NCBI GenBank assembly: GCA_003696075.1
Contig: RFHH01000078.1
Location: forward strand, 1-33,748
Length of the DNA: 33,748 bases
Origin: Acidobacteriota bacterium
GTDB taxonomy: Bacteria; Acidobacteriota; Polarisedimenticolia; J045
Direction: 5' to 3'
Of the stretch, positions 1,455-17,903 are shown piece after piece. Numbering within the stretch: position 1 is the stretch's first letter; each line of letters begins with the position of its first letter. The notes beneath the pieces were generated by a model. It saw nothing but the letters and a program-made list of their open reading frames with translations. It ran no database searches and was not told the origin of the DNA. Both the position numbers and the translations under genes were made by a program.

Positions 1455-2114
1455 GTGAGCACCTACGTGCTGATGCGCCTGTTCGAGGCGTCGCCGAGGC
1501 GGTACGACATCGGCCTCCGGGTCCTGACTCTCGGTCGGATCGACGGCGTGCGCCTGAGGGTCGCCTCTCTCGCCGCAGCGCCGGGCGTCCGGTTGCTCGA
1601 CCTCGGATGCGGCACGGGGGAGCTGAGCCTCGCCTGCGCGGCCCGGGGTGCGGAGGTGATCGCCGTCGATCACGACCCCCTCCTCCTGGCGGTGGCGCGG
1701 AACAAGCTCCAGGACCGAGCGCGGGGCGGGCGCGTCCGGTTCGTCGAGGCCGGCGCCGGGGAGCTGGCGCAGCGGTTCTCCCCCGCGAGCTTCGACGCGG
1801 CCGTTTCCTGCCTTTGCCTGAGCGAGATGGAGCCGCCCGAGCGCGGTTATGTCCTCGGCGTCGTGCACGGCCTGCTCCGCCCGGGAGGCCGCCTGGTGGT
1901 GGCGGACGAGGTGCTTCCCCGTCCCGGGCCGCGACGGGTCCTCTACCGGTTGGCCCGCGCCCCCTTGGCCGCAGCGACGCGCCTGGCCTGCGCCGCGGCG
2001 TCGCGGCCGATCGCCGACCTCGAGGCCGAACTCGGCGCGGCGGGGTTCGCCATCGAGCGGAGAGAGCGGCGCGGAGGGCTGGCGATCCTCGCCGCACGCC
2101 GGGAGGAGCGGTGA
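1455..2114 (+). CDS. Class I SAM-dependent methyltransferase, CpaM-like (corrinoid-protein-associated)
   Basis: A 219-residue methyltransferase. Motif I (LLDLGCGTGELSL, ~47-59), the acidic end of strand 2 (VIAVDHD, ~68-74) and a post-motif strand (FDAAVSCLCLSEM) give a standard SAM-binding Rossmann fold; the later LRPGGRLVVAD motif is typical of the Ubi/menaquinone-type branch. GTG 1455 is preferred over the in-frame GTG 1434 because AAGGAG stands 7 bases before it. Its TGA overlaps the GTG of the HgcAB-like gene (GTGA at 2111-2114), so the two are translationally coupled. A methyltransferase beside an HgcA-like corrinoid protein matches the group called CpaM, so the inferred role is methylating, or being methylated through, that protein or a shared substrate. 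The substrate is unknown. Fold is certain; the CpaM label rests on context. Confidence 0.85.
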   Translation: MSTYVLMRLFEASPRRYDIGLRVLTLGRIDGVRLRVASLAAAPGVRLLDLGCGTGELSLACAARGAEVIAVDHDPLLLAVARNKLQDRARGGRVRFVEAGAGELAQRFSPASFDAAVSCLCLSEMEPPERGYVLGVVHGLLRPGGRLVVADEVLPRPGPRRVLYRLARAPLAAATRLACAAASRPIADLEAELGAAGFAIERRERRGGLAILAARREER

Positions 2115-3232
2115 GCCGACGCGCCCGGCTCCGGGAGCTGGCGGGATCGCTGCGGGACACCGTGCTGCGCATGTTCCCGCACCGCGCGCCGACCGGCCTG
2201 CTCGCGGTGGGCCGGCCCGGGCCCGACTCCCCCGTGCTCCTGACCGGCAACTACACGCTCACCGTCCGCCGCGTGCTGCGCGCCCTTCGCGGCGTCGACG
2301 CCTGGCTGCTCGTCGCCGACAGCCGGGGCATCAACGTGTGGTGCGCCGCCGGCGGAGGCCACCTCACCCACCACGACGTCATTACCGCGATCCGGGCGGC
2401 CCGCCTCGACGAGAAGGTCCGCCACCGCCGGATCGTCCTCCCGCAACTGGCGGCCCCCGGGGTGGAGCGCCGGAAGGTGGCCGAGGCGACCGGCTGGAAG
2501 GTCGTCTGGGGGCCGGTCCGGGCCGAGGATCTCCCGGCGTTCCTCGGACGGGGGCTGCGGGCGACTCGCGAGGAGCGGGAGGTGCGCTTTTCCCCCGCCG
2601 ATCGCCTCGAGATGGCGGCCGTGTGGGCGGGTCCGATGACGGCGATCGCGGGGCCGGTCGCCGGCCTGGCAGGGGGCTGGCCGGTCGGGCTGGCGGCGGC
2701 GCTGCTGGTTCCGGTCCTGGTGGGAGCGCTGTTCCTCGCGGCGGGACGCCTGCCGGTGCAAGGGGCGTCCGGCGCGGTGGTGTACGCCGGTGCCGCGCTG
2801 GCCGGAACCGTCGCGGGGGAAGGGATGCTCGCGCTGGCGGGCGCGGCATCGCCCGGCGGAGCCGTCGTGCTGCTGCTCGTCCTCGGGGCCGCCATGGCCG
2901 TGTTGTCGATCGACCTGGCCGGGACGACCCCCCTCATGCCGAGTACCGTCAACCGGTTCCGGAAGGGCCTCGACGTCGAGCTCCTCCCGGACCGCTGCAC
3001 CGGAGGAGGCGAGTGCCTGCTCGTGTGCCCGCGGGGCGTCCTCCGGATGGATGGGCGCCGCCGGAAGGCCGTGCGGGAGCGCCCGGAACGGTGCCTTTGG
3101 TGCGGCGCGTGCATCGTGCAGTGCCCGGCGGACGCGGTGCGCTTCCGCACCCGGGACGGGCGGGTCCTCCCGCCGGACGAGGTGCGCGGCACCCGGCTCG
3201 ATCTTCTCGGCCGGCGCTCCATCCGGATCTGA
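2111..3232 (+). CDS. HgcA-like corrinoid protein fused to HgcB-like ferredoxin (HgcAB-like fusion)
   Basis: A 373-residue membrane protein starting at a GTG that overlaps the upstream stop, with GGAGG just before it. Residues ~35-150 are a CdhD/HgcA-type corrinoid domain with the cap-helix motif INVWCAAGG (Cys78), close to HgcA's N(V/I)WCA(A/G)GK but with Gly at the usual Lys position. Residues ~165-272 hold four to five hydrophobic helices like HgcA's membrane part. Residues ~290-345 are a ferredoxin domain. Its second cluster motif is canonical (CLWCGACIVQCP, Cys328/331/334/338); the first reads CTGGGECLLVCP, with Gly where the second Cys should be (Cys296/302/306 remain). HgcB's C-terminal Cys pair is absent. 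In HgcAB, reduced ferredoxin activates the corrinoid for methyl transfer to Hg(II). This fusion looks like the non-mercury relative. The substrate is unknown. Confidence 0.88.
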   Translation: MSRRARLRELAGSLRDTVLRMFPHRAPTGLLAVGRPGPDSPVLLTGNYTLTVRRVLRALRGVDAWLLVADSRGINVWCAAGGGHLTHHDVITAIRAARLDEKVRHRRIVLPQLAAPGVERRKVAEATGWKVVWGPVRAEDLPAFLGRGLRATREEREVRFSPADRLEMAAVWAGPMTAIAGPVAGLAGGWPVGLAAALLVPVLVGALFLAAGRLPVQGASGAVVYAGAALAGTVAGEGMLALAGAASPGGAVVLLLVLGAAMAVLSIDLAGTTPLMPSTVNRFRKGLDVELLPDRCTGGGECLLVCPRGVLRMDGRRRKAVRERPERCLWCGACIVQCPADAVRFRTRDGRVLPPDEVRGTRLDLLGRRSIRI

Positions 3233-3254: not shown

Positions 3255-5243
3255 TCACCAGATGTAGTCGCGGGCGATCCGCCTCTTGTCCCGTCCCGCG
3301 AGCAGATGGACCACGCGGATCTTCCTCAGGGTGACCGGAGAGAGCGAGGCCAGTGGAATGTGCACGATGCGCTTGCCCTGGGAGGCCGCGTAGGCACGGA
3401 GGCGTTCCGCGGGCGGCCTTTCGGCGACGTGGACGACGAGCTTCTCCCGGCTGTAGTCGACGGCGGCCATGATCAGGACCTCCGCCTTCTCCCGCGCCGC
3501 CGCGTAATCGGGATCGATCCAAACGTCGAACAGCCGGCCCGGGGGCATGGTCATCAGGAACCCGCCGTAGGTCGCGCGCATGATCCCCGGCCCCACCACG
3601 TGCTGCGTCGGGTCCGTGGCGTAGAAGGCCATGTCGGACTCCTGTTCGCTCTCTCCGAGCCAGGTCATGCGCAAGGGGAAGCGGGTGTCGTCGCGGTCGC
3701 GATCGAAGATCACGACCACGGAGCCCGCGCCGCCCGGCACGCGCAGCAGCTCGCGCACCCAGACCTTCCCCTCGTGGAACCTCCGCATCGTCTCCCGGAT
3801 ATCGATGCCGTCGAGCAGGCTGGTCGAGAACGGTTCCACCCGGGCGCGCTCGGCCGACAGGATCGCGACCGCCTTCCGCCGGAGAAAGCGGCCGTAGTCC
3901 TCGATGACGAGATCCTCCGGCGGGAAGGAGCAGATGTCGGCGTCGTCGAAGGCTTCGAGCCACCGCGCGGGGTTGTCGGCTTCCGGGCGCCGTCGAACCG
4001 GAAGCCTCACCGGCCGGTCCTTGACCCGGAAGAACCGCCTGCGGAACCGCACCTTCCGCGTTCCCAGGTCGAGAAGGCCGCCTTCGACCCGGGCCGTCGG
4101 CAGTTCGGCCTCGCTGTCCTGCCACGGATACGTGCGGGCCGCGTCGTAGAGCTCCCAAGCCAGATTGTCGTCGGCCACACCGCGAGCGGCGACCGTCCAT
4201 TCGTACAGGCCGGGGACCAACAGGCCCTCCACCCGCGCGTACCGGCGCGCGAAGTCGAAGAAGAGGCGCCGCTGCCACGTCCGGACCGTCTCGCCGGCGC
4301 GGCGCTCGTAGGACCGCGCGGCGACCTTCCACAGGAACGCTCCCAGGAGCATCCGGTCGAGCGCGAAGCCGCGCCCCAGGGGGCGGGCGGCGGCCGCCGC
4401 CGCGGCGTCGACGAGGAGGCGCCGGCGGGAGTCCTCGGCGCCGGGCGTCCGGCCCCCCGCCAGGACCCGGAAGCCGCCCCGGACCAGCGTGAGCGGCCGG
4501 GCCGCGACCCGGTCGACCGGAGGAGCCGCCGGGACGGTGCCGCCGCGCAACCGTTCCCAGACCGCGTGGGCGAGGGGGGCTTCCCGCAGCACGCCGGGGA
4601 GCGAGTCGGGATGGACGTGCAGGCAATGGACCTCTCGGCGGGCGGTCCTGGCCAGCGGGCGCGCGAGGGGGCCCTTCAGGTCCGACGCGATCCGCTCGGC
4701 GTGCGCGGCCCCCACGAGCGCCAGCACGAGGCCCTTGGCGGACGCGGCGATGCGGAGAAGCCGCCAGGCCATGCCCCGCTCGCGGGCCCGGTCTTCCGGG
4801 GCGGCGGGACGCCGGGCCAGCGCCCGGGCGACCAGCGCGAGGAAGCGTTCGGGACCGAGAACGAAGGCCGCGTGCGCGTCCGGCAGCGGGTCGGCGTGGC
4901 TCGTCCGGTAAGGGATGTCCGGATCGATGAAGGCGGCCGCCGCGCCCCGCTCCTCCGCCCAGCGCAGGGCCTCCGCCAAGGGGTCTCCGGGTGCGCAGAA
5001 CCAGACGAGAGGCTCCTCCGCTCCCTCCTGCGACACCACCGCCGACACGCGCGGCAGTCGCCGGACGGCGCGGCGCACCGCCCCGGAGATCGTGTCCGGC
5101 AGCTCGACGGCCACCACCGCCGGCTCGAGCGTGTCGAGCACCGCGCGAACCACGGCGGCGAGATCGACGCTCTCGTGGAGCACCGGCAACAGCCGGATCC
5201 CCGGCCCCACCTCGGGTGCGAGCAGGCCGGGATCGAGTCTCAT
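3255..5243 (-). CDS. Large protein of unknown function with degenerate TraB/Tiki-like N-terminal domain, partner of MoxR ATPase
   Basis: A 662-residue soluble protein that I do not recognise as a named family. The first ~190 residues carry spaced motifs reminiscent of TraB/Tiki/ChaN-type domains: LPVLHES (His23), VAVELPD (Glu47), ERGMAW (~155-160) and LVGAAHAERI (~177-186). Those families are metal-dependent hydrolase-like folds; the match is by eye and tentative. Residues ~200-660 are Arg-rich with no motif I know, including FDRDRDDTRFPLRMTW and the C-terminal VHLLAGRDKRRIARDYIW. There is no signal peptide or membrane helix and no clear vWA metal site (DxSxS). It sits 57 bases downstream of the MoxR-type ATPase, same strand. 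MoxR ATPases usually remodel or load metal into a neighbour-encoded protein, so this is the likely client. Confidence 0.75.
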   Translation of the reverse strand: MRLDPGLLAPEVGPGIRLLPVLHESVDLAAVVRAVLDTLEPAVVAVELPDTISGAVRRAVRRLPRVSAVVSQEGAEEPLVWFCAPGDPLAEALRWAEERGAAAAFIDPDIPYRTSHADPLPDAHAAFVLGPERFLALVARALARRPAAPEDRARERGMAWRLLRIAASAKGLVLALVGAAHAERIASDLKGPLARPLARTARREVHCLHVHPDSLPGVLREAPLAHAVWERLRGGTVPAAPPVDRVAARPLTLVRGGFRVLAGGRTPGAEDSRRRLLVDAAAAAAARPLGRGFALDRMLLGAFLWKVAARSYERRAGETVRTWQRRLFFDFARRYARVEGLLVPGLYEWTVAARGVADDNLAWELYDAARTYPWQDSEAELPTARVEGGLLDLGTRKVRFRRRFFRVKDRPVRLPVRRRPEADNPARWLEAFDDADICSFPPEDLVIEDYGRFLRRKAVAILSAERARVEPFSTSLLDGIDIRETMRRFHEGKVWVRELLRVPGGAGSVVVIFDRDRDDTRFPLRMTWLGESEQESDMAFYATDPTQHVVGPGIMRATYGGFLMTMPPGRLFDVWIDPDYAAAREKAEVLIMAAVDYSREKLVVHVAERPPAERLRAYAASQGKRIVHIPLASLSPVTLRKIRVVHLLAGRDKRRIARDYIW

Positions 5244-5300: not shown

Positions 5301-6131
5301 TCAGAATTCGAGCTCCTCCGCATCCTCACCGAGCGCCGCCCGCAGCGCGAACTCGACCGCCTCCTCCGGCGAAGAGCGGTCGCCCCGCCGCAGGACCTTC
5401 ATCGCGTATCGGGCGATGTTGATTCCGTCCCGGACCGTGTAGCGCAGGTCCCTTCCGTGCGCGGCCCTGAGGAACGCCAGAACGTGCGCGAGAACCGCCT
5501 CGTCGGCGAAGGGCACATGTTCGGCCAGGATCGCCCTCTCTTCGTCCTCCTCGGGAAAATCGACGACGATCTGCGGCATCAGCCTGGAGTGGATGTACTC
5601 GGGGATCTCGTAGGTCGAGGCGTCCTCGTTCATCGTGGTGACGAAGCGGAACTGCTCGTTGGCATCGATTCGGATCCCCGCGACCAGGCTCTCCACGTAA
5701 CGCCGGTGGTCCAACAGCGGCGCGAGAGAGGCCCACGACTTCTCGCTCATCCGGTTTCCCTCGTCCAGGACGAGGGCCCCGCCACGCACCATGGCGGTGA
5801 CCAGGGGGGAGGCCATGTAGCGGATCCCCCCACCGGGTGCCAGCACCGGGGACACGATGAGGTCCTCGGGCCGCGTATCCATCGTCGCCTGCATCACGTA
5901 GACTTCGAGGCCGAGCTCGCGGGCCGCGGCGCAGGCAAGGGTCGTCTTGCCCACGCCGGGCTTGCCGAGCAGACGGGGGTTCAAGGGCAGGTCCTCGGGG
6001 CCGACCTTCGTCCACGCCGCGAGAAGCTGGAGCAGGACGTCGCGCTGACCGATCCACCGGGGTATGCGGGCGACGGGCTGGGCAAGGTGGAGGGTCACGC
6101 CGTCGATCTCGACCGTCCGTTCCAGGGCCAT
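5301..6131 (-). CDS. MoxR-type AAA+ ATPase
   Basis: A 276-residue AAA+ ATPase. Walker A is GKPGVGKTT (~56-64), Walker B is ALVLDE (~119-124, followed by GNRM), sensor 1 lies in TTMNED (~165-170), and IHSRL (~180-184) supplies an arginine-finger candidate. The helix-2 insert region (TRPEDLIVSPVLAPGGG) is typical of MoxR/CbbQ/NorQ ATPases, which act as chaperones that assemble or activate a partner, often a metalloenzyme. The ATG at 6131 is preferred to a GTG at 6155 because GGGGGAAG lies just upstream and the protein then begins like its family. It is followed 57 bases later by the TraB-like gene. No vWA protein is nearby, which is unusual for MoxR pairs. Confidence 0.9.
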   Translation of the reverse strand: MALERTVEIDGVTLHLAQPVARIPRWIGQRDVLLQLLAAWTKVGPEDLPLNPRLLGKPGVGKTTLACAAARELGLEVYVMQATMDTRPEDLIVSPVLAPGGGIRYMASPLVTAMVRGGALVLDEGNRMSEKSWASLAPLLDHRRYVESLVAGIRIDANEQFRFVTTMNEDASTYEIPEYIHSRLMPQIVVDFPEEDEERAILAEHVPFADEAVLAHVLAFLRAAHGRDLRYTVRDGINIARYAMKVLRRGDRSSPEEAVEFALRAALGEDAEELEF

Positions 6132-6190
6132 TCGTCTTCCCCCGATCCGCGGCACCGGCGCGACCTATCCTGCCGCACTCGGCTCATCCG

Positions 6191-7060
6191 TCAAACCAGT
6201 CCCTCGAGCCGCCGGCGAAGGCCGGCCACCAGCGATTCGAGAGCCGCCGGCCCCTGCCGGAAGAAGAGCGACGGCTCGATCAGCTCCAGCTCCATCACCA
6301 GCGGCTCGCCGTCCGGACCGGGAGCGAGATCGGCGCGCGCGTAGAGGAACGGCCCTCCCGCGGCTCTCGACGCGCGCAAGGCGACCTCCTCCTCGGCCGG
6401 CGCGATCGGCACCGCTTCGTCCGACACACGCTCGTCCTGGCCGGAGAAACGGGGATTCTTGCGCACCGCGTGGGTGACCTTCCCCTCGATCATCACGACC
6501 GCCCGTTCCCCGTAGCCCTCGACCGACTCGAGGTACGGTTGGACCAGGACATCGCCGCGCTGGGTCAGCCTCTCCAGGTGGCGTTGCCCTTCCTCGACGA
6601 CATCGGGGGTCACCAGGATCGTTTCGAGAGAGGCCGCGGAGATCGCGGGCTTCACCACCGCGCGCTCCCAGCCGTGCCGCCGGAGGATCTCCACCAGCGA
6701 GGCCCGCGTCCCCCGTTCGACGAGCTGCGTCGGGACCGTGGGAACGCCCCGGCGCCGCAGCTCCAACAGATAGCCTTTGTGGAGGTTCCAGCGCACGGTC
6801 CGGAACGGGTTGAGCAGGCGCGAAACCCGGGCCACCGAGCCGGCCCACGCGAGGAACCGGCTCGCGTGCCGCGGGTAGTTCCAGCAGGATCGCAAGAGGG
6901 TCAGGCGCGCGCGGCTCCAGTCGACCGTCTCGTCGTCCCAGGCTCGAACGGCGTGGCGGATGCCCGCCGCGGCGAGAGCCTCCGAGAGCGGCCGCGCATC
7001 GGGATCCGGCTCCGGAAGCCTGCGGCAGGTCACCAGCGCCACGTCCAGCCGGGAGTTCAT
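6191..7060 (-). CDS. ATP-grasp domain ligase
   Basis: A 289-residue soluble protein of the ATP-grasp superfamily (RimK/glutathione-synthetase-like branch). The N-terminal third is a pre-ATP-grasp domain with the conserved-looking stretch LLRSCWNYPRH; the middle holds the ATP-binding lysines (RAVVKPAIS, ~133-141) and the adenine-loop strand VLVQPYLESVEGYGER; the C-terminal metal site is in PLVMELELIEPSLFF (~250-264), where the E-x-E-x-x-E/N pattern coordinates Mg-ATP. Such enzymes join a carboxylate to an amine or similar nucleophile through an acyl-phosphate. Its ATG overlaps the stop of the GT4 gene upstream (4 bases), so an amidation or ligation linked to the glycan pathway is a reasonable inference. 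Substrates cannot be read from the sequence. Confidence 0.85.
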   Translation of the reverse strand: MNSRLDVALVTCRRLPEPDPDARPLSEALAAAGIRHAVRAWDDETVDWSRARLTLLRSCWNYPRHASRFLAWAGSVARVSRLLNPFRTVRWNLHKGYLLELRRRGVPTVPTQLVERGTRASLVEILRRHGWERAVVKPAISAASLETILVTPDVVEEGQRHLERLTQRGDVLVQPYLESVEGYGERAVVMIEGKVTHAVRKNPRFSGQDERVSDEAVPIAPAEEEVALRASRAAGGPFLYARADLAPGPDGEPLVMELELIEPSLFFRQGPAALESLVAGLRRRLEGLV

Positions 7061-8193
7061 GCGCGCCGCCCTTCCTTCAGGAGCGAGCGGTACAGGTCGG
7101 CCGTCCGCGCGACCATCGCCTCGATCGCGAAGTGCCGAGCCGCCCTCTCCCTCGCACGCCGGCCCAGATGGCGGCGCCGCTCCTCGTCACCGAGCAGCTC
7201 CTCGATCGCCTCCCGGAGGGCTACCGCATCGCCAGCTGGAACCAGCACTCCGGTGTCGCCGAGGCACTCCCGGTTCCCGCCGACGTCCGTGGCGACGACC
7301 GCGCATCCGGCGGCCATCGCCTCGAGCAGGGCGTTCGACATCCCCTCGGAGAGCGAGGGAAGGACGAAGAGATCGAGCGCGGCGAGCAAGCCGGGGATGT
7401 CCTCGACATTCCCGGCCAGCCGGACGCGGCCGGCCAGTGGGCCGGACGCGGCCTGCCTCCGGATCCGCTCGGCATACGGTCCAGCGGCCGTTCCGGCCAG
7501 GATCAGCAGCCGCCGCGGGTCCTCGGCCAGGAGCGGCTCCATCGCCCTCACGAGCACCGCCTGCCCTTTGACCGGCTTCACCGTCCCCGCCGTACCGACG
7601 ACCACGGCATCGGGCGGGATGCCGTGCTCGCGGCGGAAGGCGGCGCGGTCTCCCGACGCCATCCGCGTGGTGTCCACCCCGTTCGGGATGACGACGAGCT
7701 TCTCCGGCGGGACGCGTTCCCGCTCGAGCGTGAAGCGGCACACGGCCTCCGAGTTGGCGACGATCCGGTCCGCGAACCGGTTGGTGAGCCGATATCCGCG
7801 AATGTGGTGCGGCCGGTTCCGCTTGATGGCGCGCCGGGTCGTCACCACCGCCCTCGGTCGTCCAAGCCGGGCCGCGAGCATCCCGTACACGTCGGCGTCG
7901 AAAAGGAATGTGTGCACCACGTCGATGGACTCGCGGCGGACGATTCCCGCCAACCGCAGCAGCCGAACGGCGTTGTCCGGGCGCCAGAGGCGCCCCGAGA
8001 GTCGAAGCTCGGTCACCGGCACGCCGGCGGCGCGCAGCCGGTCCGCCCGCGTGCCTCCCTCCCCCAGCAGCGCCACGTGCGGCCGGGCCGCGCCGGAGGC
8101 GGCGAGGCCGCGTGCGAGGGCCTCGACGGAGAGCTCGGTTCCACCCGGCCCCAACGAGCCGGTGATCAGCAGCACCCGGAGGGGCGCCCTCAT
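7057..8193 (-). CDS. GT4-family glycosyltransferase
   Basis: A 378-residue GT-B glycosyltransferase. The N-terminal acceptor domain begins with VLLITGSLGPGGTE (the GGxE loop at ~16-20) and the C-terminal donor domain has the PSLSEGMSNALLEAMAAG stretch with the E-x7-E donor motif, then VLVPAGD. VVIPNGVDTTRM marks the hinge region. The ATG at 8193 is set by the 4-base overlap with the S9 peptidase stop (8190-8193). The stop likewise overlaps the ATP-grasp start. It lies far downstream of the lipid-loading step, so it probably adds an internal or late sugar. Donor and linkage are unknown. Confidence 0.92.
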   Translation of the reverse strand: MRAPLRVLLITGSLGPGGTELSVEALARGLAASGAARPHVALLGEGGTRADRLRAAGVPVTELRLSGRLWRPDNAVRLLRLAGIVRRESIDVVHTFLFDADVYGMLAARLGRPRAVVTTRRAIKRNRPHHIRGYRLTNRFADRIVANSEAVCRFTLERERVPPEKLVVIPNGVDTTRMASGDRAAFRREHGIPPDAVVVGTAGTVKPVKGQAVLVRAMEPLLAEDPRRLLILAGTAAGPYAERIRRQAASGPLAGRVRLAGNVEDIPGLLAALDLFVLPSLSEGMSNALLEAMAAGCAVVATDVGGNRECLGDTGVLVPAGDAVALREAIEELLGDEERRRHLGRRARERAARHFAIEAMVARTADLYRSLLKEGRRA

Positions 8194-10367
8194 CGTTCCG
8201 ACGGCGGTGCCTCCTCGCTTCCCGCGCGGTCGATCCTCTTCCCCGTCTCGGTGTCGAACACCCGGTTCGCGGCGAAGTCCTCCACGGACCAGGGAGGTCC
8301 GCCGCCCCCGAGCCACCGATGGAACCAGTCGAGGTGGGCCGTGTAGTACAGCGCCATTTCGTACCAGCCGGGCCAGTGCCCCGCCTCGGGAAAAACGATC
8401 AAGCGGGAGGGCACGCCCCTCCGCTGCAGCGCCGTGAAGAGCTGGAGGCCCTGGGTGTAGGGCACCCGGTAGTCGAGCTCGCCCGTGATCACGAGCGTCG
8501 GGGTCTGCATCCTGTCCGCGAACCGGGCGGGGTTGAACCGCTCGTAGAGCGGCGAGTCCCAGGGCCGGCCGCCGAGGTCCCACTCCGGGAACCACAGCTC
8601 TTCCGTGGCCCCGTAGAAGGAACGCAGATCGAACAGGCCCATCATCGTGGCGATGGCCTTGAACCGCGTCGTGTGTCCGAGCAGCCAGTTCATCATGTAG
8701 CCGCCGTAGGACCAGCCCATGGCCCCCATCCTGTCTTTGTCCACGTACGGCAGCTTCTCCAGGGAGTCAGCGACCCGCATCACGTCGCGATACACGCGCC
8801 CTCCCCAGTCGCGGGAGATGGCGGCCGTGAACGCCTGGCCGTAGCCGGTGGAACCGGTGGGATTCGGGAAGGCGACGATGTAGCCGGCCCCGGGATAGAC
8901 CTGCCAGTCCCCGCGGAACGCGTCCGCCCACTGCGACTGGGGCCCCCCGTGCACGTTGAGGATGAGCGGGTATTTCCTGGATGGATCGAAATCGTGCGGC
9001 TTGATGAGGAAGCACTCCACCTGGTAGTCCCCGGCACCGGGCAGCCACAGGCGCTCCGCGGGCCGGATGTCGACCTCCCGCTCCAGCTTCGCGTTGTGGA
9101 ACGTCAGGCGGCGGGGCGAGCCGCCGGTCAGGTCGTAGGCCCAGATCTCCGGCGGCTCCGCGATCGCCCGCCGCACGGCGTAGACGGTCTTCCCGTCGGG
9201 CGCGATGGCGAAGCTGTCGATCGTCGCGTGCTCGACGATTTTCTCGAGAGGGCCGCCGTTCAGCGGAACCCGGTACAGGGGAGTCGCACCGTGCTCTTCG
9301 GCCAGGAAGAGGAGCGCTTCGCCGTCGGGGAACCAGGCGAAATCGTCGACCCAATTGTCGAAGTGGGCGGTGAGGATCCGCTCCTCGCCGCCGTCCACCG
9401 CGCGCACCGCAAGCTCGTATTCGTCCGACTCGTAGCCTGGCTGGCGCTGGCGGCGGTAGGCGATCAGGCTCCCGTCCGGGGAGAACCGCGGCGTCCCGTC
9501 GTACGCGGGATTGTCCGCCGTGATGTCCCGCGCCGGCGCGTCTCCGGAGAGCGGCACGACGAACAGGTCGTCGTTCGTCGACCAGGCCAGCTCCTCGGGC
9601 GGACCCGGGTTCTGCTGGAAGGCGAACCGCCTCCCATCGGGTGAAAAGGCGTAGCTTCGCGGACTCCACAGGTAGAACTGCGGGGGGCCGCTGCGCTCGG
9701 GAGTCAGGTCGCGCACCTGCCGCGTCTCGAGATCGAGGACGAGCACGTGGGGGACCTTGCCGTCCCACCACCGGGTCCAGTGCCGGTAGAACAGGCGATC
9801 GGCGACATGGGCCTTGAGCGGTCCCTTCTCGCGTTTCTCGTCGATTTCCCGGTTACAGGCGTCATCGGCTCCGCACTCGGGATAGACCTCGCTGGTGAAG
9901 GCGATGGACCGCCCATCGGGCGAGAAGAGGAGATCCTCGGCGCCCGTGGCGATGTCGGTCACCGTGTAGGGCTCCCCCCCCTCCATCGGCAGCAGCCAGA
10001 TCTGGTCCTTCTCCTCCTTCTCGGCGACGAAGGCGAGGAAACGCCCGTCCGGCGACCACGCCAGTGAGGACTCCGACCGTTCGGGCGAGTGCGTCAGGCG
10101 CCGGGGCTCCCCTCCGGAGGCCGGCAGGAGCCAGATGTCCTCGTACTGCTTCCCCCGTGGGAGGTCGCGCTCGCGTTTCACGTAGGCGATCCACCGGCCG
10201 TCCGGTGACAACGCGAATTCGGGCACGTAGACGACGCGGTAGAGATCCTCGATGGTGAAGGCCCTTTTCTCTCCGGCTTCGACCGTGGGGGCCGGGGCCA
10301 GCAACGCGGTGACGAGCGCGAGGAGGCCGACTGAGGCGAACGGGCAGCGGGAACGGCTCGGCAACAT
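8190..10367 (-). CDS. Secreted S9-family (prolyl oligopeptidase/acylaminoacyl-peptidase type) serine peptidase
   Basis: A 725-residue exported peptidase. Residues 1-31 form a signal peptide (hydrophobic GLLALVTALLAPAPTVEA). Residues ~40-420 are WD40/PD40-like propeller blades, seen as repeated FSPDGR(W/S)IA(Y/F) units. The C-terminal alpha/beta-hydrolase has the oxyanion loop NVHGGP, nucleophile Ser553 in GWSYGGY, Asp632 in GELDYRVP and His664 in EAGHWP. Enzymes of this group cleave short peptides, often removing acylated N-terminal residues or dipeptides, in the periplasm. It is embedded between the CapK-like ligase and a GT4 gene, with its stop overlapping the GT4 start. The context may be coincidental operon packing or may mean a peptide decoration is processed. 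A ribosome-binding site GGGGAG precedes the ATG at 10367. Confidence 0.93.
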   Translation of the reverse strand: MLPSRSRCPFASVGLLALVTALLAPAPTVEAGEKRAFTIEDLYRVVYVPEFALSPDGRWIAYVKRERDLPRGKQYEDIWLLPASGGEPRRLTHSPERSESSLAWSPDGRFLAFVAEKEEKDQIWLLPMEGGEPYTVTDIATGAEDLLFSPDGRSIAFTSEVYPECGADDACNREIDEKREKGPLKAHVADRLFYRHWTRWWDGKVPHVLVLDLETRQVRDLTPERSGPPQFYLWSPRSYAFSPDGRRFAFQQNPGPPEELAWSTNDDLFVVPLSGDAPARDITADNPAYDGTPRFSPDGSLIAYRRQRQPGYESDEYELAVRAVDGGEERILTAHFDNWVDDFAWFPDGEALLFLAEEHGATPLYRVPLNGGPLEKIVEHATIDSFAIAPDGKTVYAVRRAIAEPPEIWAYDLTGGSPRRLTFHNAKLEREVDIRPAERLWLPGAGDYQVECFLIKPHDFDPSRKYPLILNVHGGPQSQWADAFRGDWQVYPGAGYIVAFPNPTGSTGYGQAFTAAISRDWGGRVYRDVMRVADSLEKLPYVDKDRMGAMGWSYGGYMMNWLLGHTTRFKAIATMMGLFDLRSFYGATEELWFPEWDLGGRPWDSPLYERFNPARFADRMQTPTLVITGELDYRVPYTQGLQLFTALQRRGVPSRLIVFPEAGHWPGWYEMALYYTAHLDWFHRWLGGGGPPWSVEDFAANRVFDTETGKRIDRAGSEEAPPSER

Positions 10368-10479
10368 GGCATTCTCCCCGTGGGCGAGGCCGTATTCTGC
10401 CCCGAAGGCGAAGGCGGGCGCACGCCCCGGCTCGCCGCTCCGCGCCCGGTGGTTGGCGGAATCGGCGCGCCGGCTCCGC

Positions 10480-11820
10480 TCACCCGGACCGGCCGCCCCC
10501 GACCTGCGAAATCACGAAGCGGTGTTTTCCCGACGGCGAAGGGGGGATCTCGGGCACCTCCAGCAGTTCCACCGAGACCGTGCGGCCGAGGGCTCCCGCC
10601 AGCGTGTCGAGAACCCGCTGTCGCACCGCGGGGCCGTAGCCGGGACCGGGGACCACCCGCACCACCAGGTGGTCCGGCCGGTCCTGCACCACCTGGAACC
10701 GCTCGATCGTGCGGTCGAAGGGGCGGAGCTGAAGCGTGAAGAAGGTGCCGCCGAAGGCGCGGCCGTCCGGGGTGACCACGACGTCGAGAGCGCGGCCCTC
10801 GATGCGGGACAGGAGTCCGAACGGGCGGCCGCAGGCGCACGGCCCCGGCGCGGGGAGCGCGAGGTCGTCGATCCGATAGCGGATCATCGGCATCGTGCGG
10901 TTGTCCAGGTCGGTCACGAGGATCGGGCTCGGTTCCCCGGGCGCGGGACCGGGCTCGAGCTCGAGGTAGAGCCGCATGTCCATCACGTGCAGCCCTCCCC
11001 CCTCCGGGCACTCGGCGGCGATCATCCCGAACTCGCGGCTGGCGTATCGATCCCGCACCGCCGCGCCGAACAAGTCCTCCAGGTCGGCGCGTACCGGATC
11101 TTGCAACACCTCGGCCGAACTGTAGATCAGCCGGACCCCGAGCCGGCGGCAGGCTTCGCGTCCCATGCGGCGGGCGAGGTGGTGGAGGATGGACGGGTAG
11201 GAAGTGATGACCTCGGGGCGGAAGCGCTCGAGGCGCCGCCAGTGCTCGGCGAGCCGTTCTTCACCCACGCCGTAGACGGACAGGAAGAGTCGGTTCGACA
11301 GCAGGTCGGCCACGCGGGAGGCGACGGAAGGCTCGGCGTCGAGGGCCGCCCCCCACAGGAAGGCAATCCGGGTCCCCGGCCTGACACCGTCCCACTCCTC
11401 GGTGAGCCGCCCGGCGGCCCGGCGGCGGTCTTGCGTTTCGCGGTCGAGTCGGAACCAGACGTTGTGCCCCGTCGAGCCGCCGGTGGACCGTTCGCGCACC
11501 CCGCGGCCCGGGCGCCGGCTGGTCAGATCGTCGCGCCGGGCGTTGATGGTGGCCTTGTCGAGGGGAGGGATCGACCGGAACCCGGCAGGCGCCGCCAGGT
11601 CGGCCGGCTTCGCCCCGAGACGGTCGAACTGCTCGCGCCAGAACGGCGTCGTCTCGTAGGCGTGTTCGAGCAGCGCGCGGAGCCGTCGCCACCGCCACGC
11701 CTCGAGCCGCTCTCGCGTCCAGCCTTCCATCCGCCGGAACCGGCGGAAATAGGACGGGTAGCGCCTCCCGGTGGCGAGGGCGGCGACCCTGTCGATGGCG
11801 CCGACGAGCGGGGGCCACAC
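10480..11820 (-). CDS. CapK-like adenylate-forming enzyme (phenylacetate-CoA-ligase family)
   Basis: About 446 residues with the start uncertain. The ATGA overlap at the end of the NeuD gene (11867-11870) is out of frame and hits a stop after 13 codons, and the in-frame GTG at 11820 is the best visible candidate. The N-terminal region (YPSYFRRF, WRWRRLRALLEHAYETTPFW) is typical of CapK-type proteins. The phosphate-binding loop is STGGSTGHN, the acyl-adenylate motif is YASREFG, and TDLDNRTMPMIRYRIDD is the A8/A10-like region; FGTFF and a C-terminal SGKHRFV lysine loop complete an ANL fold. ACACGRPF contains two Cys as in many family members. These enzymes activate a carboxylate as AMP ester; in capsule loci they are suspected to decorate sugars with acyl or amino-acid groups. 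The substrate is unknown. Confidence 0.85.
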   Translation of the reverse strand: MWPPLVGAIDRVAALATGRRYPSYFRRFRRMEGWTRERLEAWRWRRLRALLEHAYETTPFWREQFDRLGAKPADLAAPAGFRSIPPLDKATINARRDDLTSRRPGRGVRERSTGGSTGHNVWFRLDRETQDRRRAAGRLTEEWDGVRPGTRIAFLWGAALDAEPSVASRVADLLSNRLFLSVYGVGEERLAEHWRRLERFRPEVITSYPSILHHLARRMGREACRRLGVRLIYSSAEVLQDPVRADLEDLFGAAVRDRYASREFGMIAAECPEGGGLHVMDMRLYLELEPGPAPGEPSPILVTDLDNRTMPMIRYRIDDLALPAPGPCACGRPFGLLSRIEGRALDVVVTPDGRAFGGTFFTLQLRPFDRTIERFQVVQDRPDHLVVRVVPGPGYGPAVRQRVLDTLAGALGRTVSVELLEVPEIPPSPSGKHRFVISQVGGGRSG

Positions 11821-11866
11821 GGCGCCGCTCAGTACCCGGCCCGCCGGCCCCGCGAGCCGGCGCCGG

Positions 11867-12523
11867 TCATTGGGATGGCCCCCGCGCCGGCCGCGGGTGC
11901 GGGCGCGCGGGGTTACCGAAGACTGCCGCGCCGGCCGCGACATCCCGCAGGACCACGCTTCCAGGCCCGACGTGGGCACCGTCGCCGATGGTGATCCCGG
12001 GAACGACCGTCGCGTTGGTTTGGACCTCCACGCCCTCCCCGATGACCACGTTCCCCGTGATGTTCACCCCGGGCGCGACCGTCGAGAACCGTCCGATGCG
12101 GCAATCGTGACCGACCGTCGCGTTCAGATTGATCGTGGTGTGCGCCTCGATCCGGGTGTCGTAGGCCACGACCACCCCGGCGCCGACGATGGCCCCCTCC
12201 GCCACGGTCGTGCCCGATCCGAGTACGGCCGTAGGGTGGACGACCGGGCCGGCCCACTCCACACCGGCCGCCGCGAGGCGCTCGAAGAGAAGCCGTTTCG
12301 ACCGGGAGGAGGCGATGGCGAGCACGGCGGCGAAGGTGGCACCGCGCGCCTCGAGCCAGGCGACCGATCCGAGGACGGGTAGGCCGCCGACGGGCCCCGC
12401 CGCCGCGTCGTCGACGAATCCTTCGACATCGGGCACCGGGAGGCCGGCCGCCCGGCGGGCGCGGAGGATCTCGAGCACCCCGCGGCCGTGTCCACCCGCT
12501 CCCACGATGACCAGACGCTTCAT
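11867..12523 (-). CDS. NeuD/PglD-family sugar O/N-acyltransferase
   Basis: A 218-residue two-domain acyltransferase. An N-terminal Rossmann-like domain (LVIVGAGGHGRGVLEIL, 4-20) binds the nucleotide-sugar, and a left-handed beta-helix of hexapeptide repeats (residues ~95-205, e.g. VVHPTAVLGSGTTV, GAHVGPGSVVL) binds acetyl-CoA. His139 in NATVGHDCRIG sits where PglD keeps its catalytic His. In PglD the product is UDP-N,N'-diacetylbacillosamine; in NeuD it is acetylated sialic acid. Its ATG overlaps the stop of the PglC-like sugar transferase by 4 bases, recreating the pglC-pglD pairing of bacillosamine pathways. No PglE-type aminotransferase is in view, so the exact sugar is open. Confidence 0.9.
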   Translation of the reverse strand: MKRLVIVGAGGHGRGVLEILRARRAAGLPVPDVEGFVDDAAAGPVGGLPVLGSVAWLEARGATFAAVLAIASSRSKRLLFERLAAAGVEWAGPVVHPTAVLGSGTTVAEGAIVGAGVVVAYDTRIEAHTTINLNATVGHDCRIGRFSTVAPGVNITGNVVIGEGVEVQTNATVVPGITIGDGAHVGPGSVVLRDVAAGAAVFGNPARPHPRPARGPSQ

Positions 12524-13194
12524 CCCTCTCCCCCTCCGCTCCTGCTCCGCGCTTCCTTCTCCTCCCGGCGCTTCTTCCAGTAGTCGGCGTCGGCGATCTG
12601 ATCGGCGCCGCTGAGGACCGCGGGAATCGTGCGGGCGAGGATGAGCAAGTCGCGGCCCAAGGACAGGTTCGCGATGTACTCGAGGTCCTTTTCGATTCGT
12701 TCGGGCCAGGTGATCGCGTTCCGCCCGGAGACCTGGGCCCACCCGGTGATTCCCGGCTTGACCGTCAGTCGCCGTCGCTGGACGTCGTCATACAGTTCCA
12801 CCTGGTAGGCGAGGCCGGGGCGGGGCCCGACGATCGACATGTCTCCCCGGATCACGTCGAAAATCTGCGGCAACTCGTCCAGGCTGAGCTTGCGCAGGAT
12901 CCTCCCCACGCGGGTCACCCGCGGGTCGTTCCTCTCCACGAGAATCCCCGCCCCCATCCGCTCCGCCCCGACCACCATGGAGCGGAACTTGGTGAGCTTG
13001 TACGGCCTCCCTCCCTGGCCGATCCGCTCCTGCCGGTAGAAGACCGGTCCGCCGTCCTCGAGTTTGATCGCGAGAGCGATCAACAGCATCAGCGGCCCGA
13101 GGAGAATCAGGACGAGCAACGAGACGGCGAGATCGAGCCACCGTTTCCCGTGGCGCACGTAGAAGGTATCGGGCGGTCCTTGCGGTCGCGTCAC
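12520..13194 (-). CDS. PglC/WcaJ-type undecaprenyl-phosphate sugar phosphotransferase (initiating enzyme)
   Basis: A 224-residue monotopic phosphoglycosyl transferase of the short PglC form. It has an amphipathic start (RHGKRWLDLAVS), one membrane helix or reentrant hairpin (~19-43) that contains the Pro of LLGPLML, VFYRQERIGQGG (52-62), KFRSM (69-73), the catalytic DE pair in LDELPQIF (Asp106/Glu107), the IVGPRP loop (121-126) and PGITGWAQVSGRN. It transfers a sugar-1-phosphate from UDP-sugar to undecaprenyl phosphate at the inner membrane face and so starts the repeat unit. The GTG at 13194 overlaps the LarA-like stop (GTGA). A charged tail (WKKRREEKEARSR) follows the domain. With WbpM and NeuD in the locus, a diacetylated or N-acylated 6-deoxy sugar is a plausible substrate. 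Confidence 0.95.
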   Translation of the reverse strand: MTRPQGPPDTFYVRHGKRWLDLAVSLLVLILLGPLMLLIALAIKLEDGGPVFYRQERIGQGGRPYKLTKFRSMVVGAERMGAGILVERNDPRVTRVGRILRKLSLDELPQIFDVIRGDMSIVGPRPGLAYQVELYDDVQRRRLTVKPGITGWAQVSGRNAITWPERIEKDLEYIANLSLGRDLLILARTIPAVLSGADQIADADYWKKRREEKEARSRSGGGEG

Positions 13195-14453
13195 CGTTCC
13201 GCCTCCTGCGGGGCCGCCCGTGGCAGCGTCAGGGGTGCGGTGGGGAGGACCACGATCCGGCCTCCTCCCGGATGCCGGCGCCGAAGGAGCTCGAGCACCT
13301 CGCGCCAGCGCCGCGCGTGCGGGTAGCCGCTCCAGAACGAGTGCCGCACCTCCCGCGTGGCGAGATTCGGGGCGTAGACCACCAGCTCGCGCCCGGCGAG
13401 GTAGGGCCGCTCCACGGGTCGCCGGTAGAGACGCATCCCGGGCCCGTGAAGGCCGTGATGACCGACGCCCTTCGGGCACGCCGCGGTGACGACCACCGTG
13501 CCGCCTTCGCGCACGAGAGGGAACGGCGCCGCGCGCCACGCGTTGAACACGTTGCCGACCTGCAGCAGCTCGACATCCTTCGGGTACGCGTTGAGCAGCG
13601 CGGCATCCGCGCCCGGGGCCACCGGAACGGCCAGGGCTTTCCGCGCGAACCGGACGGCGTGCCGGTGCGCCGACACCGGGTGGCCGTAGAAATGCCCCAA
13701 GGGCCGCCTGCGGGGGCCCGGCACGATGTTCAGCACCGCCTGGAGGCCGGCTCCGAGGGCGATCTCCTCCATCTCGGCCCGCGCGCGATTCCCCTCCACG
13801 ACGCCCACACCCGCGCCGGCCAGGCCGGTGACGGCGGGGCGGTGATTCGCCTCGAGGGTCTCGATCCCCGCCAGCCCCGGCAGGACGATCTTGCCACCCC
13901 CGCCGAATCCGGCGTACGGGTGCGGCATCACGGAGCCGAGCGCGAGCTTCACGTCCGCTTCGTGAAAGGCGCGGTTGATGCGGACCGGCAGACCTGCCGG
14001 CGAGCGCCCGAGGTCGACGAGGTTTTCGTAGGGATTGTGGTTCGATACGTCGCACCGCTCACAGGCGAACTCGCCCAGCTTCATGCGGAGCTCCGGCCCG
14101 GTCGCCGGAGCGTGGGCCCCGACGGCGAGGATCACCCGAACCCGGTGAGGGGGGATGCCCCCCGACTCCAGCCGCTGCAGCATCGCGCGCAGCGCCCTCC
14201 CGGCGGGTGCCGGCCGCGTCAGATCTTCGACCGCGATGGCCGCCGTCGCCCGATCCCCCCGCCGCCGCACGGCTTCCCGCGCCAGCTCGTCGATCGGGGG
14301 GGCCCCGACGGGAGCGGCGAGCGCCTCCTCCAGCGAAGGGCCGGCCGGCTCGTCACCCGGAGCGGCCGCTTCGACGCGCCAGCCGGGGGGCAGCGGGAGC
14401 CGCTCTTCGCCCTCCCAGTGCCACGCACCCCACGGAATCGCGATCTCGGCCAT
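13191..14453 (-). CDS. LarA-like nickel-pincer (lactate racemase family, DUF2088) enzyme in a glycan operon
   Basis: A 420-residue protein of the lactate racemase family. Residues that bind substrate and the nickel-pincer nucleotide in Lactiplantibacillus LarA have clear counterparts: Asp77 and Arg80 (EDLTRP), His114 (VGAHAP), His178 (MPHPYAG), Lys188 (GGGGKIVLPG) and His204 (EANHRP). The His-Lys-His spacings of 10 and 16 are those I recall for LarA (H174/K184/H200). LarA homologues epimerise or racemise alpha-hydroxy acids by hydride transfer. Its ATG shares one base with the preceding GT4 stop (14453), so it is fully inside the polysaccharide operon; an epimerase acting on a lactyl group, sugar acid or glycan building block is the inference. 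The cofactor-making LarB, LarC and LarE are not in the window. Confidence 0.85.
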   Translation of the reverse strand: MAEIAIPWGAWHWEGEERLPLPPGWRVEAAAPGDEPAGPSLEEALAAPVGAPPIDELAREAVRRRGDRATAAIAVEDLTRPAPAGRALRAMLQRLESGGIPPHRVRVILAVGAHAPATGPELRMKLGEFACERCDVSNHNPYENLVDLGRSPAGLPVRINRAFHEADVKLALGSVMPHPYAGFGGGGKIVLPGLAGIETLEANHRPAVTGLAGAGVGVVEGNRARAEMEEIALGAGLQAVLNIVPGPRRRPLGHFYGHPVSAHRHAVRFARKALAVPVAPGADAALLNAYPKDVELLQVGNVFNAWRAAPFPLVREGGTVVVTAACPKGVGHHGLHGPGMRLYRRPVERPYLAGRELVVYAPNLATREVRHSFWSGYPHARRWREVLELLRRRHPGGGRIVVLPTAPLTLPRAAPQEAER

Positions 14454-15733
14454 CAGGCGTCGCCCGCCTCTCGATCCGCGACGAGCCTTGGCCCCGGCGC
14501 GGATGAGGGTTCGCGCGGGTCCCGGCCCGCCAGCTTTCCGAACACTTCCAGGAGACGCCACGCCAGCTCGCCGCGGTGGAAGTTCTCGATCGCGTAGCGG
14601 CGCCCCGAAGATCCGAGGCGCGCCAGCTCCTCCTCCCGCATCGCCGCCAGCTCGCGGACCGCCCGCGCGAGCGCCGGGGGATCCTCGGGCGGGGTCACCA
14701 GCCCGCAGCCCGCCCGGCGGACGAGCTCCGCCATCTCCCCTTCCGCCGCCACGATCACGGGACGGCCGGCGGCGAGATAGTCGAAGATCTTGTTGGCGAG
14801 GACCATCCGCTGGAAGGGGTGCCGCCAGGTGACGACCACGTTGGCCGAAGCGGCGCGGAGTTGTTCGAAGGCCTCCCGCTTGGGAACCGCCCCGACGAAT
14901 CGCACGTGGTCGAGTCCGGCGCGGCGGGCCCGCTCTTCGAGCCGGGCACGCTCGTCGCCGTCACCTATGAAAACGAACTCCACCGGATCCTCGCGCAGGA
15001 GCTCGGCCGCCTCCAGGATCTGGTCGAGCCCGTTCCAGCGCCCGTGCGCCCCGCAGTACACGACCCGGAAGCGATCCGGCCGCTCGGGCACCGGCCGCTC
15101 CCCGGCCTCCAGCATCCAGTCGTCCACGCCGTTCGGGACGAAGAGCACCTTCTCCGGCGGAACGCCCTCGTCGATCAGCCCCGACTCGATGCCGCGGGTC
15201 ACCGCCACCACGCGCGCCGCCCGCCTGTAGAGCCGCCAGGCGAACCACCGAGCGGCCAGGGTGAGCGGCCCCCGTTTCCGGAGGACGCCGGCGACGACCG
15301 CCGACTGGGGCCAGAGGTCCCTGACCTCGAAGACGAACGGCGCGCGGCGCACGGCGGCCGTGAGCGCCCCGGGCAGGCCGACCGTGAGCGGGGTGGACGA
15401 GGCGTAGACGATGTCCGCGGATCCCGCGCGGATCAGGCCGGCCAGCGTCGCGGTCACGGCGTAGCTGAGGAAGTTCAGCAGCCGGCGGCCGAAGGAGCCG
15501 CGGATTCCGGCGTAGGACCAGACCCGCAGCACGCGCACGCCGTCGATGGTCTCGCGGGCGATGAGCCGGCCGCGGAAACGCTCCGGGACGGTCAGCGTCT
15601 TGTGATTCAACGCCCCGGTGACCACGGTCACCTCGTGGCCCGCCCGGGCCCACTGACGGGCGAACTGATAGGGGCGCGAGCCGCCGGGCTCGTCGGGGAG
15701 ATTGAAGTACTGGACGAAGTAGAGAATCCGCAC
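14453..15733 (-). CDS. WbuB-like GT4 glycosyltransferase
   Basis: A 426-residue GT-B enzyme. The opening (ILYFVQYFNLPDEPGGSRPY) is characteristic of the WbuB group, which transfers N-acetylated amino sugars such as FucNAc in O-antigen loci. Further markers are FEVRDLWPQSAV, VLFVPNGVDDWM (hinge) and the donor-domain stretch NKIFDYLAAGRPVIVAAEGE. It is soluble or peripheral, with hydrophobic patches near 80-110. The start is a GTG at 15733. It follows the WbpD-like gene by 42 bases and overlaps the LarA-like start by one base. As the GT closest to the initiating transferase it probably adds the second sugar. The C-terminal ~25 residues are Pro/Ala-rich and not conserved-looking. Confidence 0.92.
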   Translation of the reverse strand: MRILYFVQYFNLPDEPGGSRPYQFARQWARAGHEVTVVTGALNHKTLTVPERFRGRLIARETIDGVRVLRVWSYAGIRGSFGRRLLNFLSYAVTATLAGLIRAGSADIVYASSTPLTVGLPGALTAAVRRAPFVFEVRDLWPQSAVVAGVLRKRGPLTLAARWFAWRLYRRAARVVAVTRGIESGLIDEGVPPEKVLFVPNGVDDWMLEAGERPVPERPDRFRVVYCGAHGRWNGLDQILEAAELLREDPVEFVFIGDGDERARLEERARRAGLDHVRFVGAVPKREAFEQLRAASANVVVTWRHPFQRMVLANKIFDYLAAGRPVIVAAEGEMAELVRRAGCGLVTPPEDPPALARAVRELAAMREEELARLGSSGRRYAIENFHRGELAWRLLEVFGKLAGRDPREPSSAPGPRLVADREAGDA

Positions 15734-15745
15734 GGCGCCAGGATA

Positions 15746-15767
15746 GCGCGGCGGCCCGCGGCCGCGC
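15746..15767 (-). promoter_or_regulatory. GC hairpin upstream of the WbuB-like gene
   Basis: Inverted repeat GCGCGGC / GCCGCGC (15746-15752 and 15761-15767) with an 8-base loop in the 42-base gap, ending 13 bases before the GTG at 15733. There is no T-tract. Confidence 0.3.
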
Positions 15768-15775
15768 GCAACGGG

Positions 15776-16546
15776 CTATTGGTTGTCCAGCAGTTGCTCC
15801 TCCGGAACCTCCCGCACGGGCCGCGCGGGAGCCCCCATGACGACGGTCCGCGGCGGGACGTCCCGGGTCACCACCGAGCCGGCGGCGACGAGTGCGTCGG
15901 CCCCGACGGTGAGTCCCGGCAGGAACGTGGCGTTCGCACCGACCCTCGCTCCCCGCTCCAGCGTGATCCCCTTGTGGTGTTTGAAACGCTCCTCCGTCCG
16001 CCCGAGGAAGTTGTCGTTGGTGAACGTCACCTCCGGGGCGATGAAGCACCCTTCCTCGATCCTCGAAAGGGCGGTGATGTAGGCCTCGGTCTCGATCTTG
16101 CACCGGGCTCCGATGGTGACGCGGTTTTCCACCGTTACGCCCCGGCCGATGATCGTGCGCTCCCCCACCGAGACCTCCTCCCGCACGGTCGCGAGGTCGG
16201 CCACCATCACCTCCGCGCCGATCTCGGCGCCGCGATAGAGAACGACCCCCGCCCCGATGAGAACCCGATCGCCGATCCGCAGGGGAGGCAGCTCCTTTTC
16301 CCGGGTGATCGCGGAGGCCGCAGCACGCATCGGGGGCTTGCCCAGGACGGCATGGTCGTCCACGCGGACACCGTCTCCGATACGGGTACCGGGATGGAGG
16401 ATCGCGTAACAGCCGATTCGGCACCCGCGCCCGATGATCACGTCGGCACCGACCACCGTCCCGTGTCCGATCTCCGTTCCCTCGCCGATCCGGGCGCTCG
16501 GATGGATCAGGGGGCCGGCGCCCGGGATTCCCCCGCTGGCGTTCAC
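15776..16546 (-). CDS. WbpD-like sugar N-acetyltransferase (left-handed beta-helix)
   Basis: A 256-residue protein made almost entirely of hexapeptide repeats ([LIV]-G-x-x-x-x), e.g. ARIGEGTEIGHGTVVGADV and ERTIIGRGVTVENRVTIG, followed by the usual C-terminal closure RDVPPRTVVMGAPARPVR. The loop with TFTNDNFLGR resembles the WbpD/WlbB active-site region of acetyltransferases that acetylate the 3-amino group of UDP-GlcNAc(3NH2)A. The GTG at 16546 overlaps the stop of the upstream dehydrogenase (GTGA), matching the wbpB-wbpD pair of the UDP-2,3-diacetamido uronic-acid pathway. The pathway's aminotransferase (WbpE) and UDP-GlcNAc 6-dehydrogenase (WbpA) are not seen here. Confidence in family is high; the exact sugar is inferred. 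Confidence 0.88.
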   Translation of the reverse strand: MNASGGIPGAGPLIHPSARIGEGTEIGHGTVVGADVIIGRGCRIGCYAILHPGTRIGDGVRVDDHAVLGKPPMRAAASAITREKELPPLRIGDRVLIGAGVVLYRGAEIGAEVMVADLATVREEVSVGERTIIGRGVTVENRVTIGARCKIETEAYITALSRIEEGCFIAPEVTFTNDNFLGRTEERFKHHKGITLERGARVGANATFLPGLTVGADALVAAGSVVTRDVPPRTVVMGAPARPVREVPEEQLLDNQ

Positions 16547-17559: not shown

Positions 17560-17591
17560 CGCTCCGTCCCCGCGCCGTCCGCGGGCCGCTG

Positions 17592-17633
17592 GCGGGAGGT
17601 CCTCCGGCGCCCCTTTCCGGAGGATCCTCCCGC
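17592..17633. repeat. Long imperfect inverted repeat built from two palindromes
   Basis: Arms 17592-17607 and 17617-17633 (16 and 17 bases, one bulged base) face each other across a 9-base loop. Each arm contains its own near-perfect palindrome: GGAGGTCCTCC and GGAGGATCCTCC. It lies between the small HTH gene (stop at 17648) and the dehydrogenase start (17559). It has no T-tract in either direction. It could be an RNA stem that punctuates the operon, or a pair of operator sites for a DNA-binding protein such as the HTH protein next door. Confidence 0.55.
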
Positions 17634-17647
17634 TCCGCCGGCAGCGG

Positions 17648-17857
17648 TCACGCCTGGACCCGATTCCTCTCGAGCCAGGCCAAGAGTTCGGACTTCTTGT
17701 AGCGCAGCGACGAGGTGCGGCCGGAGCCCACCCGGTAAGCGGGGAGCTGCTTGCTCTTGGTCAGCTCCCACAGCTTGGTGCGCCCGATCTTGAGAAACTC
17801 CTGAGCCTCCCGGCTGGTGAGGATCTCTTCGTCGCGGTCGATCATCTCGGAGGCCAT
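17648..17857 (-). CDS. Small excisionase/BldC-type helix-turn-helix protein
   Basis: A 69-residue protein consisting almost only of a winged MerR-like HTH (HTH_17): ILTSREAQEFLKIGRTKLWEL is helix-turn-helix (~12-32), followed by the wing with YRVGSGRTSSLRYKKSELLAWL. AGGAGA precedes the ATG at 17857 by 9 bases. Such single-domain proteins are phage excisionases or small regulators like BldC. No integrase, attachment repeat or phage gene is nearby, and it is the first gene of the glycan array, so a regulatory role is favoured. Divergent from the nucleotidyltransferase at 17968, with which it shares a 110-base control region. Confidence 0.85.
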   Translation of the reverse strand: MASEMIDRDEEILTSREAQEFLKIGRTKLWELTKSKQLPAYRVGSGRTSSLRYKKSELLAWLERNRVQA

Positions 17858-17903
17858 TGGGTTTGTCTCCTGTTGTGCCGGACCGGCCTCGAACCGGCCC
17901 GGG

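Follow-up and report, generated by a model that had tools for sequence, protein, structure and literature searches.

The pair of overlapping genes at positions 1455–3232 raises the question of what a relative of the mercury-methylating proteins HgcA and HgcB does when it is encoded as one polypeptide beside a SAM-dependent methyltransferase. The chief mercury neurotoxin in food webs is the product of one branch of the HgcA superfamily. We studied the locus in its window, the whole stretch of 33,748 nt that makes up contig C78 of an Acidobacteriota draft genome (3.29 Mb, 98.6% complete). The reading we favor, tentatively and with a probability of roughly 0.48, is that the pair is a co-translated unit for SAM-fed corrinoid methyl transfer at the membrane, in which the methyltransferase would load the corrinoid and the acceptor is probably not mercury.

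The Gene Pair and Its Families

Both genes and all their features described below lie on the forward strand. The upstream gene (1455–2114) has a GTG start at 1455 with AAGGAG just 5' of it and a TGA stop at 2112–2114, and encodes CpaM, a class I SAM methyltransferase of 219 aa (AlphaFold pLDDT 90). The downstream gene (2111–3232; GTG start at 2111, TGA stop at 3230–3232) encodes an HgcAB-like fusion protein of 373 aa. They share the four bases GTGA at 2111–2114, formed by the start codon of the fusion and the stop codon of CpaM, which may couple the translation of the two genes. Direct reading bore out the coordinates, frames and overlap given in a first-pass annotation of this DNA.

The names that the annotation had chosen also hold, each protein scoring over the cut-off of its NCBIfam model. 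CpaM matches NF043040 with 242 bits (cut-off 180; E = 3.9e-72) and, as expected for that family, adjoins an HgcAB-like fusion with a 4-base overlap. The fusion matches NF043039 with 386 bits (cut-off 285; E = 2.4e-115) over profile positions 4–349 of 350, which span the corrinoid, membrane and ferredoxin parts; with such E values neither match is due to chance. At the same time the fusion falls below the cut-offs of both the true HgcA model NF040863 (176 bits against 275, first half only) and the HgcB model NF040864 (48 bits against 99). A better fit to another B12 family, which the annotation had considered as an objection, was not found, the score against HgcA being well above that against the large subunit/gamma of CFeSP (NF003195, 81 bits against a cut-off of 306).

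Since both names already exist in NCBIfam, the window pair is of a known, uncharacterised kind, to which, judged by sequence, it adds one member. It shares gene order, overlap, domain order and invariant residues with the other NF043039/NF043040 pairs, including those of the Thermococcales and Methanococcoides lineages. In the literature searched, no paper dealt with what CpaM or NF043039 proteins do, and no match was found in plasmid records.

The genes flanking the pair lie on the opposite strand and belong to no related family. A 662-aa orf without Pfam or NCBIfam match (3255–5243, reverse strand) adjoins a MoxR/GvpN-like AAA ATPase gene (5301–6155). Further on are an ATP-grasp-like gene (6191–7060, reverse strand; 211 bits against a cut-off of 360 for the D-cycloserine synthetase DcsG model) and a polysaccharide-type cluster (7057–21028, reverse strand) with group 1 glycosyltransferases, a bacterial sugar transferase and a Polysacc_synt_2 epimerase.

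Linkage and Co-inheritance of CpaM and the Fusion

The first-pass annotation had left it to a survey how often the methyltransferase is adjacent. We scanned the genomes of 84,980 species, found 237 relatives, kept the best 80, which come from many bacterial and archaeal phyla, and looked upstream of them with a CpaM profile built in this analysis. Among these best 80, CpaM was revealed upstream of the fusion in 76 loci, and in 76 of the 77 that had room for it. In three of the four remaining loci the fusion starts within ~115 bases of the contig end; the fourth (L047) has ~0.9 kb of upstream DNA without CpaM. By contrast, no CpaM was present within 1.5 kb of split hgcA at any of 16 loci. The two genes overlap or are separated by at most 30 nt in 72 of the 76 loci, with the 4-base overlap as the commonest arrangement, although small gaps are favored by our choice of the fusion start codon nearest to the CpaM stop.

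The same linkage was seen within the phylum. Among 396 of its genomes, nine contain fusions over the cut-off and seven contain CpaM; all seven are a subset of the nine and carry CpaM adjacent to the fusion (Fisher p = 1e-13). Of the two fusion genomes without CpaM, one has its fusion at a contig edge and the other contains the variant locus L015. The pairwise distance matrices of CpaM and the fusion correlate with r = 0.91 (at most 0.21 in shuffles), a value to which the common ancestry of the hosts contributes. Among the relatives' loci, we found no third gene that is conserved within 10 kb of the pair.

It should be mentioned that L015 (816–2919, genome G060) encodes a member of NF043039 that is longer by ~140 residues at its N terminus and has a cysteine tail; CpaM is absent from this locus, but another class I SAM methyltransferase follows immediately downstream. 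The radical SAM protein AmrS of the AmmeMemoRadiSam system was considered as a third partner and rejected. It was found near the pair at 10 loci (L043, L046 [11.8–13.1 kb], L065, L071, L076, L077, L095, L105, L108, L112), downstream in Myxococcales and divergent in Heimdallarchaeota; as only these two host groups have it there and as it lies on a separate contig in the window's own genome, it is a weak lead.

The CpaM sequence contains the SAM motif DLGCGTG, and comparison of conserved residues showed S123 and E152 to be near-invariant. The fold search was not specific and retrieved many class I methyltransferases (TM-score ~0.6–0.76). Among solved folds, those closest to CpaM belong to methyltransferases that act on small molecules and lipids (TM-score up to ~0.76), and both profile and fold searches relate CpaM to UbiE/Coq5, PE N-methyltransferase and other small-molecule enzymes. 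To our knowledge, none of its nearest solved folds methylates cobalt.

This resemblance speaks for the main rival explanation, namely that the two proteins methylate a common substrate one after the other (e.g., a metalloid, quinone or lipid), one position receiving its methyl from the corrinoid of the fusion and another being methylated or prepared by CpaM with SAM, so that CpaM never touches cobalt. The coupling of the L015 fusion to a different SAM methyltransferase points the same way. Moreover, HgcAB takes its methyl group from SAM without a partner methyltransferase (PMC11588087), hence loading may not depend on CpaM, which could instead have the acceptor as its target. However, the near-obligate pairing, which extends over bacteria and archaea and involves no third gene, fits a direct protein–protein function at least equally well, and CpaM has no conserved set of cysteines like that of ArsM. 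We consider sequential action on one substrate possible, if on balance unlikely.

Corrinoid and Membrane Domains of the Fusion

The AlphaFold model of the fusion (pLDDT 91) consists of a corrinoid domain, four long helices at residues 162–272 and a 2x4Fe-type ferredoxin domain at residues ~288–346, in agreement with the membrane helices and fused ferredoxin of the earlier annotation. Its best matches among solved structures are 9a0b (the HgcAB model) and CFeSP. With HgcA/HgcB the fusion has a membrane domain and a dicluster ferredoxin in common.

The corrinoid-binding domain (residues ~23–145; 2177–2545) matches PF03599 CdhD at residues 23–144, and ~128 of its columns align with CFeSP structures at 1.6–2.2 A. 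With the CFeSP large subunit (AcsC/CdhE, NF003195, PF03599) it thus has the C-terminal corrinoid-binding fold in common. However, CFeSP is a soluble protein fed by methyl-THF that has a TIM-barrel domain and no cap-helix Cys ligand, whereas the window fusion has membrane helices and Cys78 and is without the TIM-barrel domain.

Cys78 belongs to the cap-helix motif NVWCAAGG (residues 75–82; 2333–2356), which the annotation had pointed out as HgcA-type and in which N75, W77 and C78 are invariant in all 89 fusions. In HgcA the cap-helix Cys is the lower axial ligand of cobalt (PMC7305189; PMC11588087), and by analogy to HgcA Cys93 (PMC7305189) the same role is predicted for Cys78. At its last position the motif has Gly in the window fusion, as in nearly all the others, where HgcA has Lys (NVWCAAGK in 15 of 16 split hgcA loci).

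The membrane domain (2594–2926) comprises four helices predicted by AlphaFold (residues 162–188, 190–209, 218–242 and 248–272), as against five in HgcA (PMC7305189). Four hydropathy peaks were found in 73 of the 89 fusions, but a simple hydropathy count gave no clean split between four and five helices in HgcA; the number four is therefore taken from AlphaFold for the fusion and the number five from the published work for HgcA. An even number of helices would bring the corrinoid and ferredoxin parts to one side of the membrane, as their fusion requires.

A Missing Cysteine in the First Ferredoxin Motif

The first-pass annotation was right about the ferredoxin but overlooked that its first motif, CTGGGECLLVCP (2996–3031), has Gly299 in place of the second cysteine. 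The window fusion thus departs from the two complete CxxCxxCxxxCP motifs that define HgcB. The second motif, CLWCGACIVQCP (3092–3127), is intact, and its four cysteines are invariant in 89 of 89 fusions. The second cysteine of the first motif is missing in 77 of the 89 fusions, the window included, and in all 23 inspected sequences of the window branch; it is kept in 12 fusions.

So consistent a loss might indicate that the distal cluster is an open-site [4Fe-4S] cluster binding SAM or substrate, with B12/Fe-S chemistry beyond electron transfer. We find this very unlikely, because a dozen fusions retain the cysteine, a separate SAM enzyme is already there, and in 7Fe ferredoxins the loss of the same cysteine leads to an ordinary [3Fe-4S] cluster. 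Radical-SAM chemistry was ruled out for HgcB on the grounds that both of its clusters have four Cys ligands (PMC11588087), an argument that would not extend to CTGGGECLLVCP. The lost ligand, however, comes from the cluster far from cobalt. In HgcB, cluster A is bound by Cys 20, 23, 26 and 60 and cluster B, the nearest to cobalt, by Cys 50, 53, 56 and 30 (PMC7305189); by this assignment the fusion would lack a distal-cluster ligand while its proximal cluster is spared.

The Window Branch and Its Hosts

In a tree built on the corrinoid domain, all HgcA sequences form a single clade (support 100/100). The window lies outside it, in a separate clade of 22 members (100/99), so that the placement within a branch proven to methylate mercury, feared in the annotation, did not occur. 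The great length of the CFeSP root branch leaves the root and the deep branching order of the fusions uncertain, and we rely on well-supported clades only. The clade of 22 includes Acidobacteriota, Myxococcota, Gemmatimonadota, Actinomycetota, Deinococcota and Planctomycetota, together with one Xanthomonadales bin and one Thermoplasmata bin. The Methanococcoides and Thermococcaceae fusions, among whose lineages are the two cultured organisms that did not methylate mercury (see below), fall outside this branch.

A further fusion, L014 (3–1924, genome G231, same family as the window genome), has canonical ferredoxin motifs, CpaM upstream and a cysteine-rich, HgcB-like tail (GVCSCPTC...CGCGSC). 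In the tree it joins split HgcA, with moderate support (91/91); it is possibly an intermediate between HgcAB and the fusion/CpaM systems.

The hosts of the window branch differ from those of the other members. The heme-copper oxidase family PF00115 was found in 19 of 21 tested window-branch hosts, 11 of 37 other fusion hosts and 5 of 16 split-hgcA hosts, and acetyl-CoA synthase in 0 of 21, 11 of 37 and 4 of 16, respectively (Fisher p = 7e-6 and 0.005, host kinship ignored). As PF00115 also covers NO reductases and many of the genomes are drafts, these counts describe respiratory gene content and not proven aerobic growth. The window's own genome contains two genes of the heme-copper oxidase family and a methionine synthase B12 activation domain, from which it follows that the host uses B12; neither acetyl-CoA synthase (CdhC) nor any CFeSP-like match beyond the window locus was found in it.

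These data bear on the source of the methyl group. Since the corrinoid domain is homologous to CFeSP, the methyl could come, as in CFeSP, from methyl-THF and the Wood–Ljungdahl pathway, with CpaM as an accessory. Such a source is highly improbable given the lack of acetyl-CoA synthase throughout the tested branch and of CFeSP in the own genome; besides, no further family is conserved beside the pair, and hence no methyl-THF:corrinoid methyltransferase. The first-pass annotation had suggested SAM, and not a methyl-THF enzyme, as possible methyl donor or acceptor; SAM as donor fits the same absence of acetyl-CoA synthase and the fact that SAM feeds HgcAB (PMC11588087).

Absence of the Mercury-Handling Cysteines

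The C-terminal tail of the fusion (3128–3229) contains no cysteine, so both the GVGC motif with HgcB Cys73 and the C-terminal Cys are absent. GVGC was present in 15 of 15 split HgcB found; the window fusion and nearly all the others lack it, and 74 of the 89 fusions have no cysteine after the second ferredoxin motif. In Desulfovibrio desulfuricans ND132, loss of Cys73 alone abolishes mercury methylation in vivo, and without the two C-terminal Cys 95% of the activity is gone (PMC7305189). As the annotation had correctly stated, archaea with fused homologues were tested and did not methylate mercury: Methanococcoides methylutens and Pyrococcus furiosus, both with fused hgcAB, made no MeHg above controls (PMC5893877; PMC5038027). 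The least probable of all explanations is therefore that the protein is a true mercury methylator whose fusion is merely a difference in gene structure, since the domain order and fold shared with HgcAB and the conserved cap-helix Cys are outweighed by the missing cysteines, the negative cultures and the separate, fully supported HgcA clade.

Discussion

SAM is the proven methyl donor to the Co(I) of HgcAB, through a Cys-ligated methylcobalamin intermediate (PMC11588087). Together with the co-inheritance of the two genes and the absence of acetyl-CoA synthase, this makes the loading of cobalt the simplest role for CpaM, while mercury as acceptor is argued against by the missing cysteines and the negative cultures. 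In the mechanism that we favor, the four helices would anchor both the B12 domain and the ferredoxin at the cytosolic face of the membrane, and the intact proximal [4Fe-4S] cluster would reduce cobalt to Co(I). CpaM, carrying SAM, would pass a methyl cation to the Co(I) of the fusion corrinoid, and the Cys78 thiolate below cobalt would favor handing the methyl, in carbanion or radical form, to a soft electrophile. The gene neighborhood offers no clue to the acceptor, for which some metal or metalloid that is not mercury, or else a different membrane-borne acceptor, is the probable candidate. We infer the direction of methyl flow, the loading role, the cluster types and the acceptor from the comparisons above.

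A more specific version would be that the window branch performs B12/SAM membrane methyl transfer in bacteria with oxygen-respiration genes, free of Wood–Ljungdahl and mercury, with CpaM as a dedicated SAM:corrinoid methyltransferase and a distal cluster that is [3Fe-4S] or open-site. Taken as a whole it is doubtful; we are not aware that an enzyme of the class I fold has yet been established as a dedicated SAM:corrinoid methyltransferase.

Our analysis adds numbers for the linkage of the two genes, the pattern of cysteines and a branch whose tested hosts mostly bear oxidase genes and have no acetyl-CoA synthase. Found in many lineages, the fusion/CpaM pair keeps the corrinoid chemistry after losing the cysteines that handle mercury; it thus isolates a function of the superfamily other than mercury methylation, and the SAM enzyme beside the fusion offers a testable handle on the source of the cobalt methyl. 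Metagenome surveys should leave fused genes of the NF043039 type out of their count of mercury methylators. Finally, the occurrence of the window branch in oxidase-bearing hosts suggests that this chemistry is not limited to strict anaerobes.
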